From: Alphaproteobacteria bacterium
GTDB lineage: Bacteria > Pseudomonadota > Alphaproteobacteria > UBA2966
Length of the DNA: 52,582 nt
Assembly: GCA_030740435.1 (NCBI GenBank)
Contig: JASLXG010000035.1
Coordinates: 1-52,582, forward strand
Direction of reading: 5' to 3'
This document shows positions 12,152 through 52,288 of the stretch, piece after piece. Both the position numbers and the translations under genes were made by a program. How positions within the stretch are numbered: the first letter of the stretch is position 1; every line of letters starts with the position of its first letter. Below the pieces are notes generated by a model. It made no database searches. It was not told the DNA's origin and was given only the letters and a program-made list of their open reading frames with translations.

Positions 12152-13060
12152 ATGAGCAATCGCCGCACCTTGATCGCCGCCTGGCTGCTGATCTCTGCCG
12201 CCCTGTCCGCCCTGGTCGGGGCGGCCGGGACGGTCGGGGGGGCCCGGGCCGCCGAGCCGCTGGTCGTCGCCAGCATCCGGCCCGTGCATTCGCTGGTTGC
12301 CATGGTGATGGCCGAAGGCCAGCCGGTGCTGCTCTATTCCGGCGCCGAATCGCCCCACGAGGCAGCGCTCAGACCCTCCCAGGCACGCACGCTGCAGGCG
12401 GCGGACCTGATCGTGCGCGTCGCTGCCGATTTCGAAACGGCGCTGCGCCGGCCCTTGCGGGCCATGGCCGCGGGCGGCACCATCCTGACGCTCAGCCAAG
12501 TGCCGGGAATCATCCGCCTGCCCCGCCGCGGCGCTGGCGGCACGGACCCCCATATCTGGCTCGACGCCCGCAACGCCGCCGCCATGGTGCGGGCCATCGC
12601 CGACGCCCTGGTCGCCCTGGATCCACAAAACGCCCGGAACGCCGAGGCCATTGGCGCCCGGGCCGAGAGGGCAGCCGCCGTGCTCGGCCGCCTGGACGCC
12701 GAGATCGCCGGCCGCCTGGCCGCCAAGCGGCCCTTCGTGGCCAGCCACGACGCCTTCCAGTACCTCGAGGCGCGCTATGGGCTGCGCACCATAGGAGCGC
12801 TGGCGGGCGCCGACGGTGCCCGGCTGGGGGCTCGGGGCAACTTGGCGCTGCGCCGGCGCGCCGGCGCCGCCAGGATCACTTGCCTGCTCAGCGACGGACC
12901 TCGCCCGGGCCGGCCGGCCCGGGCGCTGGCCGCCGACCTGGGCGCCCGCCTGGCCAGCTTCGACGTGCTCGGCTCGAGCCTCGAGCCGGGGCCCGGGCTT
13001 TACCCGAAGCTCATGCGCCAGGGTGTGGCGGCCCTGACGGCCTGCCTCGGCGCACCGTGA
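12152..13060 (+). CDS. znuA: Zinc ABC transporter periplasmic binding protein
   Basis: 302 residues of the cluster A-I metal-binding family (SBP_bac_9). A signal peptide of about 33 residues ends near GARA. Candidate zinc ligands are His46 (RPVHSL), His69 (ESPHE), His134 (TDPHIW) and His199 (ASHDAF). The His/Asp-rich flexible loop of many ZnuA proteins is missing; in this locus His-rich stretches occur on ZnuC and Zur instead. There is no Shine-Dalgarno and the Zur box ends 1 bp before the ATG, so the transcript may be leaderless. Divergent from zur-znuCB. Confidence 0.88.
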   Translation: MSNRRTLIAAWLLISAALSALVGAAGTVGGARAAEPLVVASIRPVHSLVAMVMAEGQPVLLYSGAESPHEAALRPSQARTLQAADLIVRVAADFETALRRPLRAMAAGGTILTLSQVPGIIRLPRRGAGGTDPHIWLDARNAAAMVRAIADALVALDPQNARNAEAIGARAERAAAVLGRLDAEIAGRLAAKRPFVASHDAFQYLEARYGLRTIGALAGADGARLGARGNLALRRRAGAARITCLLSDGPRPGRPARALAADLGARLASFDVLGSSLEPGPGLYPKLMRQGVAALTACLGAP

Positions 13061-46975: not shown

Positions 46976-47851
46976 ATGTCCCGCGTTGCCTACGTCAACG
47001 GACGCTATCTGCCGCACCACCTGGCAGCGGTTCACGTCGAGGACCGGGGCTACCAGTTCGCCGACGGCGTCTACGAGGTCATTGCCGTGCGCCGGGGCGC
47101 CCTGGTCGATGCCGCAGCGCATCTCGACCGGCTGGAATATTCGCTGACCGAGCTGCGCATCGCGATGGGCCGGTCACGACGCGCCATCGAGGTGGTAATC
47201 AATGAGACCGTACGCCGTAACCGGGTGCGCGAGGGCATCGTTTACATCCAAATGACGCGCGGCGTGGCGCGCCGCGATCACGGCTTTCCGGCGGTGCCGC
47301 GAACCGCCCTGGTGGTCATGGCGCGCAGCCAACGGCCGCCCTCGCGACAGGTCGTGGAGGATGGCATCAAAGTCATCACCACGCCCGACATCCGCTGGCA
47401 GCGCTGCGACATCAAGTCGGTCTCGCTGTTGCCCAACGTCCTGGTCAAGCAGCTGGCCCGCGACGCCGGTGCCCAGGAGGGCTGGATGGTGCGCCCCGAC
47501 GACAGCGTCAGCGAGGGCTCGTCGACCAACGCCTGGATCGTCGATGCCGACGGCAAGCTGGTGACGCGCAACCTTGGCAACGCCATCCTGTCTGGCATCA
47601 CGCGGCGGGCGATTCTCGCTTTGGCCGAGCGCGAACAGGTGGAAATCGTCGAGCGCCCCTTCACGGTGGCCGAGGCCAAGGCGGCCCGCGAGGCCTTCAT
47701 GACCAGCACCACCGCCTACGTCAGCCCGGTGGTGCAAATCGACGACAGCGTCATCGCCAACGGCAAGCCCGGCCACCTGACCAGCCTGCTGGTCGAGCTC
47801 TACGACAGCTACACCCTGGCGCCCGACCGCAAAAGCGCGCCCTCTCGATAA
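46976..47851 (+). CDS. dat: D-amino-acid aminotransferase (class IV)
   Basis: 291 residues, class IV PLP enzyme. The Schiff-base lysine is Lys147 in RCDIKSVSLLPNVL, and EGSSTNAWIVDADGKLVTRNLGNAILSGITRRAIL carries phosphate and substrate contacts. YVNGRYLPHHLAAVHVEDRGYQFADGVYEV fits D-alanine aminotransferase more than IlvE or PabC. It interconverts D-alanine/2-oxoglutarate with D-glutamate/pyruvate. It follows the acyl-CoA synthetase by 3 bp, and its stop directly abuts the repeat element at 47852. Confidence 0.85.
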   Translation: MSRVAYVNGRYLPHHLAAVHVEDRGYQFADGVYEVIAVRRGALVDAAAHLDRLEYSLTELRIAMGRSRRAIEVVINETVRRNRVREGIVYIQMTRGVARRDHGFPAVPRTALVVMARSQRPPSRQVVEDGIKVITTPDIRWQRCDIKSVSLLPNVLVKQLARDAGAQEGWMVRPDDSVSEGSSTNAWIVDADGKLVTRNLGNAILSGITRRAILALAEREQVEIVERPFTVAEAKAAREAFMTSTTAYVSPVVQIDDSVIANGKPGHLTSLLVELYDSYTLAPDRKSAPSR

Positions 47852-48260
47852 CGAAAAAACACCCCCTCCCTGCCTCCCCCATCAAGCTAAGGGATGCACA
47901 CATCGAGTAGTTGACGTTCCGGTCATGCCCGGCACCGGCTGGGCTGTGGAAAAGCCTTGTAGATTGACCACAGAGGCACAGAGGCACAGAGATTTGCCAA
48001 GAGGCCAATGGCGTCGGTCGCCTGGCCGGTGTTATCGCCAAGGAAGAGTCTTGATACCTGCATCGCTAGGGCAGCGTCCGGCAAAAAGACAGCTGAGAGC
48101 CGGTGGCTCATGAAGATTCCGCCACGGCGCGCCCTGACAACTCTCTCTGTGCCTCTGTGCCTCTGTGGTCAATTCCCCGTGCTTCAACTGGCTGCGCCCT
48201 TGAAGATGTGTGCATCCCTTAGCGCAAGCGGTGGAGGGCGAGGGAGGGGGTGTTTTTTCG
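47852..48260. repeat. Nested inverted-repeat (MITE-like or long-hairpin) element in the gene-free stretch
   Basis: This 436-bp gap holds no convincing gene. Outer arms are a perfect 20-bp inverted repeat (47852-47871 and 48241-48260) rich in A then C/T. Subterminal arms of 19 bp match perfectly (47886-47904 and 48205-48223). A 6-bp pair lies at 47909-47914 / 48184-48189. Inner arms of 29 bp match perfectly (47963-47991 and 48145-48173). In all about 74 bp of nested pairing, so the whole element could fold into one long hairpin as DNA or RNA. No transposase and no clear target-site duplication were seen. The outer arms plus T-run could also act as a terminator in both directions. Confidence 0.8.
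47963..48173. repeat. Inner 29-bp inverted repeats made of CAGAGGCA-type direct repeats
   Basis: The arms, 47963-47991 and 48145-48173, are perfect reverse complements. Each contains short tandem CACAGAGG units (CACAGAGGCACAGAGG seen directly). The 153 bp between them show no clear gene. The inner block may be a separate element inserted into the outer palindrome, or part of one folding unit. Confidence 0.75.
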
Positions 48261-48287
48261 TTGTCCAGGAACCACCGCCCGCGGCGG

Positions 48288-48812
48288 CTACATAAGATAC
48301 TCCGGCGCCGCGTGCTCGGTCGTGCCCTTGTCGCCGATGGGCAGCTCGAGCTGCCAGTCGGCCCGCTTGACGGCGGCCACCAAGAGGTGGGCGAAGGAAT
48401 GCAAATGATCGGAATCGAGACCCAGCGCCACCTCCTTGCCGGCCTCCGGGGACAGCGTCAGCGTGTGCATGTTGCCCTTGGTCTTGATCGTAAGGGTGAT
48501 CGGCAGGATGGGATCGTCGCCGGCCGGACGCACCGTCACCGCCTCGGCCGCCTGGTAGGGTTGGGAAAAATCGGCCGCCTCGACGGCCTTGTCGTGCTGG
48601 TAGCCGACGACGGCCTGGCGCGTCGCCGGGTCGCTCTGGCGCTGCACCTCGGGATGGCGTTCCAAGAGCTTGGCGATGAGCTGCCAGATGGTGCGCACGT
48701 AACGCCGCGTCAGCCAGGCCCGGACTTCCTGGCCATCGGTGGTGCTGACCTTGAGCAGCAGCCGGTCTTCCTCGGCCACGAAGTCGATGCTGAACTGATG
48801 CAGCCGGGACAT
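48288..48812 (-). CDS. Conserved-type hypothetical protein
   Basis: 174 residues from the ATG at 48810-48812, 7 bp after the HIT-gene stop, so probably in its operon. The fold looks globular, with MSRLHQFSIDFVAEEDRLLLKVST near the N-terminus and PILPITLTIKTKGNMHTLTLSP centrally. I do not recognise a named family; ILPITLTIK..LTL suggests a beta-rich core. Its 3' end faces the repeat element. Confidence 0.6.
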   Translation of the reverse strand: MSRLHQFSIDFVAEEDRLLLKVSTTDGQEVRAWLTRRYVRTIWQLIAKLLERHPEVQRQSDPATRQAVVGYQHDKAVEAADFSQPYQAAEAVTVRPAGDDPILPITLTIKTKGNMHTLTLSPEAGKEVALGLDSDHLHSFAHLLVAAVKRADWQLELPIGDKGTTEHAAPEYLM

Positions 48813-48819
48813 GATCGCC

Positions 48820-49236
48820 TCAGGCCCCCTCCCCGTCGTCGTCAACCAGCGCCCAGTGCAGGCGCTCGGCGTGCTCAGCCAGAACCGCCTCGTCGGCCGG
48901 TGCCGCCTCGGGCGGCTCTTGCCAGACACTCAGGGGCCATTGCGCATCGTCCTGGTGGCGCGGGATGACGTGCCAGTGCAGCCAGGGCACCTGGTTGCCG
49001 AAGCAGGCCAGGTTCATCTTGTCGGCCCGGTAGAGGTGCTGCAGCACCCGGCTGAGAAGGCGGAGTTCGGCCATCAGCACGATGTAGTCCTCGGCCGCCA
49101 GGTCATGGATCTCGCGCGCTTCGGCCAACGGGATCAGCAGTGAACGCCCGGGGTGGGCGAAGTCGCGCCACAGCCTGACGGCGGCGGTTTCGAGTTCGAC
49201 AACCGGGTAGCTCACGTCGAGGAGGCGCTGGTCCAT
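48820..49236 (-). CDS. HIT family protein
   Basis: 138 residues from the ATG at 49234-49236. The histidine triad reads [11 protein letters not shown], with [10 protein letters not shown] before it, typical of small bacterial HIT hydrolases or nucleotidyl-transferases. Substrates are nucleotide phosphoramidates or dinucleoside polyphosphates. A longer upstream reading overlaps the synthetase gene and was rejected. Between acetoacetyl-CoA synthetase and the hypothetical protein in the same orientation. Confidence 0.83.
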
Positions 49237-51334: not shown

Positions 51335-52288
51335 ATGCCGCCGTTCCGATCTCTTGCCGCCGCCGGGCGCGCGCCCGTCGCCTTGCAGGCGGCGGCCCTG
51401 ATGGTCGTCGCCATGACCTGCTTCACCATCATGTCGGCCACCATCCGCCACCTCTCGGGTGGCCTCTCGCCCTTCGAGATCGCCTTCTTCCGCAACTTTT
51501 TCGGGCTCGTGGCCCTGGCGCCCTGGTTCTGGCAACACGGGCTAGGTGGGCTGAGGACGCGACGCCACGGCCTCTTTGCGCTGCGCGGCCTGATGGGGCC
51601 CTTGAACATGTGGGCCTGGTTCTATGCCCTCTCGCTGATGCCGCTGGGCGATGTCATGGCATTGAGCTTCACGGCACCGCTGTTTGCCACCATCGCCGCC
51701 GTGTTGTTTTTGCGCGAGGTGGTGCGCGGGCGGCGCTGGACGGCCACGGCGATCGGCTTTCTCGGCACCTTGATCATCGTCCGGCCGGGCGCCGGCGTGC
51801 TCGAGCCGGGCGCCCTGCTGGTGCTTTTTTCCTCCGCCATGCTGGGCCTCAACGTCTGCATCGTGAAGGTGCTGGCGCGCACGGAAAAGTCCGGCGCCAT
51901 CGTCGCCTACATGGGGATCTATCTGGCACCCATCACGCTGATCCCGGCGCTTTTCGTCTGGCAGTGGCCAACGGCCGCCGAATGGTTCTGGCTGGCGCTG
52001 ATCGGCGGCGTCGCCACCTTGGGCCACCTGGCCATCACCCGGGCGCTCGCCATGGCCGAGGCCTCGGCCATGGCGCCCTACGATTTCGTGCGCCTGCCCA
52101 TCGCCGCGCTGATCGGGTTTTTTGCCTTCGGCGAGGTGCCCGACATCTGGACCTGGGTGGGCGCCGCGATAATTTTCAGCGCCACGCTTTACATCACCCA
52201 CCGCGAGGCCCAGTTGTCGCGTGAGCTGGCCGCCCGCGAAGCCTCCGGCAGCGGCGGCGAGGCCCAGGTGACGCCGCCGGGGGGGTAA
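51335..52288 (+). CDS. EamA-type DMT family transporter
   Basis: 317 residues with ten hydrophobic segments and two EamA repeats (about 15-150 and 160-290). [19 protein letters not shown] and [20 protein letters not shown] are the two typical repeat motifs. Such exporters handle amino acids, nucleotides or drugs; the substrate is unknown. Divergent from acetoacetyl-CoA synthetase by 117 bp. Confidence 0.87.

Follow-up and report, generated by a model that had tools for sequence, protein, structure and literature searches.

A 52,582-nucleotide stretch of alphaproteobacterial DNA (hereafter the window) exhibits a palindrome of 409 bp whose arms nest inside one another, located between the stop codons of a dat-like gene and a convergent gene. 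Does such symmetry belong to one mobile element, to a structured RNA, to an erroneous assembly, or to several repeats lying within each other?

Nested symmetry between two convergent genes

The nested perfect inverted repeats extend from 47850 to 48262 and consist of outer, middle and inner arms of 22, 19 and 30 bp, respectively. An earlier note on this DNA had counted four perfect arm sets (20, 19, 6 and 29 bp). Three of them are perfect, with the lengths given here, but the 6-bp arms are at chance level. The outermost arm, described there as abutting the dat stop codon, is indeed adjacent to it, but begins within the TAA codon (47849-47851), with an overlap of two bases. The features of the locus are the following.

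46976..47851, + strand: dat-like gene (aminotransferase class IV; PF01063, E 7.5e-44), the upstream neighbour
47850..47871, + strand: left outer arm, 22 bp, perfect; half of a terminator-like hairpin repeat
47872..47885, + strand: remainder of the outer repeat's left half, GCCTCCCCCATCAA; matches free copies, e.g. on contigs C117 and C9
47886..47904, + strand: left terminal inverted repeat of the MITE, 19 bp, perfect; shared with the IS on contig C5
47905..47962, + strand: left subterminal region of the MITE; 66-88% identical in the two-ended copies retaining the region
47963..47992, + strand: left inner CACAGAGG arm, 30 bp, perfect, three 8-nt units
47993..48143, + strand: gene-free spacer between the inner arms, 151 bp; 64-83% identity with diverged copies
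48144..48173, - strand: right inner CACAGAGG arm, 30 bp, perfect
48174..48204, + strand: right subterminal region of the MITE; related to the IS right end (alignment of about 38 bp, end plus subterminal)
48205..48223, - strand: right terminal inverted repeat of the MITE, 19 bp, perfect
48224..48240, - strand: right half of the outer repeat near the loop, GCAAGCGGTGGAGGGCG
48241..48262, - strand: right outer arm, 22 bp, perfect; T6 tract on the + strand
48288..48929, - strand: convergent neighbour gene (ORF), family without assignment, conserved in a sister genome

The 52.6-kb window contains five perfect inverted repeats of at least 18 bp with a partner within 450 bp: the three nested sets, and two compact, self-overlapping GC palindromes. 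Per window, composition shuffles yield about 0.45 inverted repeats of 16 bp or more; the nested arms are far above what chance predicts for the window. The two compact GC-rich palindromes are found at 12902-12925 and 52048-52075. Folded as RNA, a 418-nt strand reaches -234 kcal/mol, against -156 ± 6 kcal/mol for dinucleotide shuffles (z = -13). The ORFs of 95-96 aa overlapping the palindrome are a read-through of the repeat arms, and no plausible gene lies inside, in agreement with the gene-free character noted before. The perfect arms, their rarity in the window and the fold energy confirm the palindromic element as an observation.

The convergent neighbour is conserved in the genus. Its protein is 87% identical in the sister genome G001 (85% at the DNA level), and a Pfam search with this protein returned no match. 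An orthologous empty site was sought in the sister genome. There, the conserved downstream gene stands beside a different, LysR-like gene (by sequence reading), and there is therefore no orthologous site for comparison.

Dispersed repeat families and an IS partner

We searched the own genome (a draft of 4.5 Mb in 236 contigs) with the whole element as query. The 110 matches sort into three classes: copies of a 338-bp unit (query positions 35-372), segments 1-35 and 379-411 standing alone at many other loci, and the 30-bp arms alone at still other loci. Since the three classes occur separately, the palindrome is a stack of independent repeats; judged from its sequence, it is three dispersed repeat families nested in one intergenic gap.

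The middle family is a non-coding 338-bp unit with 19-bp ends, GCTAAGGGATGCACACATC, which recur in the own genome as inward pairs. Seven two-ended copies (contigs C35, C7, C199, C26, C2, C99 and C134) and about ten partial copies were identified. The unit exhibits several features expected of a MITE: it is short, non-coding and bounded by terminal inverted repeats, it has dispersed copies with the same ends, and these ends are common to an autonomous element. The copy on C7 (G000:C7:33709-34019; loci L002 and L080) is peculiar in that both of its ends correspond to the MITE right end, with a perfect inverted repeat of 80 bp, perhaps produced when the assembly folded back through the 30-bp arms.

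The autonomous element is a complete IS of 1,489 bp with the same 19-bp ends (C5:6885-8373); a second, partial copy lies at the start of contig C88. Its 433-aa transposase matches the IS4 family profile NF033590 (E 2.7e-89) and the Tn5 transposase (E 2.6e-25). The residues D62, D158 and E296 are present, as is a perfect YREK motif, YAQRWMIEQLFRVMK, of the form Y(2)R(3)E(6)K. The IS50 subgroup of the IS4 family is characterized by the end consensus CW------Y---CA-A--W-, the YREK motif and a size of 1350-1550 bp, with 8-9-bp direct repeats listed (PMC2266710). The C5 ends agree with this consensus at 7 of 7 fixed positions, and the length of the element falls within the size range. By these characters the C5 element is an intact IS of the IS4 family (IS50/Tn5 subgroup). 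Over about 38 bp the right end of the MITE tracks that of the IS, and we infer that the MITE was mobilised in trans by the C5 transposase.

The end pattern CTAAGGNATGCACACATC was also searched in the GTDB genome set. The same ends delimit 13 two-ended MITEs (158-159 bp) in Bradyrhizobium sp. 139 and two elements of 233 bp in a Caulobacterales genome. Longer same-ended elements (1.47-1.49 kb), from Legionellaceae, Rhodobacteraceae, Acetobacteraceae and Loktanella, encode transposases 46-59% identical. In a Rhodospirillaceae MAG (ARS1032) the nesting is reversed, a same-ended element of 366 bp (L110:104-469) enclosing the outer repeat CCCCCACCC..CATCAAGGGGG.

Perfect or near-perfect target duplications of 9-11 bp were identified at most of the 28 sites examined, these lengths being apparent and ambiguous because the targets are palindromic. 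In the own genome the duplications score 10/10 (C99), 9/10 (C5), 8/10 (C26) and 8/10 (C134). According to the duplications at the sister copies, the ends of the element are at CTAAGG. The reconstructed targets of the 28 sites are mostly hairpins with the insertion in the loop. Copies of the MITE are found in several different hairpins (CCCCGCGAAAGCG, CCCCCCGAATGGG, CGGCGAAGCT). Exceptions to the loop rule are Loktanella and C99, where the hairpin is weak, and Legionellaceae, where the insertion is beside the hairpin. These observations indicate that a lineage of IS50-type transposases, present in several proteobacterial orders, favours hairpin loops. The window copy (on C35) lacks a recognisable target duplication (4/9), as do those of C2 and ARS1032 and one Bradyrhizobium copy. 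The missing duplication in the window could be due to recombination between copies or to a chimeric assembly of the draft.

The suggestion of the earlier note that the palindrome is a MITE, or one inside another, is thus borne out by the multiple dispersed copies with the same ends that a search of the rest of the genome yielded, and by the autonomous same-ended partner in this genome. Its statement that there is neither a transposase nor a target duplication applies to the window copy, but a transposase is encoded elsewhere in the genome and sister copies exhibit target duplications.

The outer repeat, CGAAAAAACACCCCCTCCCTGCCCTCCCCCATCAAGGGGGAGGG, is present with variations at about 25 other loci of the own genome, where it contains no MITE, and often forms part of a longer two-hairpin intergenic repeat. 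In the window, the insertion point is in the loop of this repeat, directly after GCCTCCCCCATCAA; the hairpin-loop preference explains this position. When joined, the window flanks form a 75-nt hairpin (-52.5 kcal/mol, z -8.6) with A and T tracts on its sides. Between convergent genes, such a hairpin matches the expectation for a bidirectional terminator, and the outer repeat plausibly has this function for both genes. A terminator scan does not list the interrupted hairpin in its present form, since the loop is too long.

Inner arms and the GxxExxY gene

The inner arms are better conserved than the remainder of the MITE. In six diverged copies they are 93-98% identical to those of the window copy, against 69-85% for the rest (Fisher p 2e-3 to 2e-6 per copy, the copies being mutually non-independent). 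Both arms are longer by one 8-nt unit in C2, and both are altered at the same pair in C99. Such coordinated changes fit either hairpin template switching or selection.

CACAGAGG arms occur in MITE-embedded hairpins, in 11 free hairpins outside the MITE, and as a pair framing a GxxExxY gene. The free hairpins are gene-less and always exhibit the same order, the CACAGAGG arm followed by its complement. Some have related loops: C108 and C128b (exact reverse complements), C98 and C101, and C128a and a deleted MITE copy, C210. Pieces of the arm are also found in G001, G005 and G006, genomes from the same genus and family, and the coupling of arms and GxxExxY gene may therefore not be strict.

An IS110-like element, assigned by motif only (start MKYYAGLDVS), interrupts CACAGAGG arms, always at the same position, GTGCCT^CTGTGG, and ends many contigs. 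It was noticed in the own genome on a series of contigs (C37, C41, C54, C60, C61, C95, C101, C103, C108, C121, C128, C132, C133, C135 and C165; loci L009-L020 and L207-L216 overall). The interrupting element itself is absent from the assembly; the only long IS110-type ORF found, on C179, belongs to a different element.

The framed gene (C170:4161-4511; TIGR04256, E 2.5e-40; PF13366 PD-(D/E)XK, E 7.6e-39) is the only GxxExxY gene detected in the own genome. In a sample of the class, inverted arms scoring at least 15 are present at 14 of the 21 distinct GxxExxY loci with enough flank, compared with 0 of 210 shifted windows from these loci; of 528 windows taken elsewhere, with one run of N omitted, 4 have such arms. 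The arms are composed of short, genome-specific units (CACGGAGG, CACGAAG, CACCAAGG, ACACAGATG). In G070, one GxxExxY gene is framed by CACGGAGG arms, and 15 free hairpins carry this motif too, with an identical order throughout. Pairs of the host motif are also present in all four further genomes sampled (3, 1, 1 and 3 pairs). One of these motifs, that of G118, is unspecific, with 2 and 3 pairs in other genomes as well. It was excluded after the result had been seen, and the remaining counts, which are small, are 5 in 3 matched against 2 in 17 mismatched cells.

S23 four-helix-bundle genes (TIGR02436) of the class exhibit inverted arms scoring at least 15 at 8 of 12 loci (L225-L236), likewise built of short tandem units with other motifs. 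No such gene was detected in the own genome as a partner of the inner arms.

The association between GxxExxY genes and hairpins is a correlation, and a functional link is possible. Tentatively, and at somewhat less than an even chance, one may envisage a REPIN-like system, in which each genome has one or a few GxxExxY genes framed by tandem-unit arms, and the nuclease would recognise these arms and maintain or spread the gene-less, one-orientation hairpins that share them, one of which would here have become cargo of the MITE. Any recognition of the arms by the GxxExxY nuclease is an inference. We found no description of such a system and no match for the arm sequence in the literature, most subscription journals being beyond the scope of this search. 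GxxExxY proteins are a widespread, functionally unexplained family of small nuclease-like proteins, now tied to a dispersed population of hairpins. This link makes their function directly testable, through binding or cutting of the arms.

Origin of the nest and comparison with known systems

The sequences suggest the following order of events. The terminator-like hairpin repeat would have been first, between the two convergent genes. A non-autonomous IS4/IS50-type MITE (338 bp, 19-bp ends) would then have inserted in its loop, by the action of a Tn5-like transposase in trans. The MITE carries the second hairpin, whose CACAGAGG arms belong to the family that also frames the only detected GxxExxY (PD-(D/E)XK) gene. 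We consider this nest of terminator-like repeat, IS50-type MITE and inner hairpin very probable; the independence of the families, the ends shared with the IS, the target duplications of sister elements and the hairpin targets are all visible in the sequences. The interpretation of the earlier note holds as regards MITE nesting, but missed the terminator-like target outside and the GxxExxY-linked family inside. The result is three levels of repeat nesting within a single intergenic gap.

An incorrect join of two repeat copies by the assembly is improbable, even though many of the 236 contigs of the draft end within the repeat, near-identical copies exist (C7, C170, C95, C121) and the window flanks lack a target duplication. 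Those flanks are mutually complementary over 22 bp and their genes are in one contig. Moreover, diverged and uniquely assembled copies share the MITE anatomy, so that the existence of the family does not depend on this join.

It is still less probable that the nested stems act together as one RNA, either a long 3' structure or a regulatory element belonging to the dat-like gene; a long structured RNA had also been among the possibilities offered by the earlier note. The very stable fold (z = -13), the terminator-like outer hairpin and the coordinated arm changes in C2 and C99 are consistent with such an RNA. Yet an Rfam search of the element returned no match up to E = 1, its copies adjoin genes of unrelated kinds, and in the sister genome another gene flanks the conserved neighbour on this side. 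The three stems come from separately dispersed families, which explain the symmetry.

Finally, a single mobile element spanning all 409 bp, with the outer arms as its true ends, is most improbable: these arms are the outermost symmetry and some MITE copies (e.g. C60, C41) have similar outer-repeat flanks, but MITE copies lie in several different hairpins, the outer repeat is free of the MITE at about 25 loci, and the duplications of the sister copies put the ends at CTAAGG.

Among known systems, the C5 partner resembles the IS50 subgroup (Tn5/IS50) in YREK motif, DDE spacing, size and end consensus (PMC2266710). It differs in its strong preference for hairpin loops and in the apparent 9-11-bp duplications, against 8-9 bp, and the window element is a gene-less derivative.

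In REPIN/RAYT systems, each arm is a REP palindrome with a GTAG or CGTC tag (PMC3733652). The CACAGAGG hairpins are similar in being gene-less inverted pairs of one orientation with arms matching those around a single-copy gene. In contrast, their arms are short tandem units, non-palindromic and without GTAG or CGTC tags, and the framed gene encodes a PD-(D/E)XK protein (PF13366) rather than a Y1 transposase of the RAYT (TnpA-REP) type. BrickBuilt of Porphyromonas gingivalis is an intergenic MITE carrying a direct array of 23-nt units (PMC4596501); the window MITE likewise carries tandem-unit DNA, but as inverted arms of 8-nt units.

The pneumococcal RUP, BOX and SPRITE are small dispersed repeats, one of them terminator-like, inserted in one another (PMC10969869). 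The window nest resembles them in these respects, and a nested MITE as such is a known kind. The ends and the transposase family are different here, a hairpin loop is the specific target, and the MITE has as its cargo a hairpin associated with a nuclease gene. The added interest of the locus lies in the loop preference across orders and in the possible GxxExxY-hairpin system.
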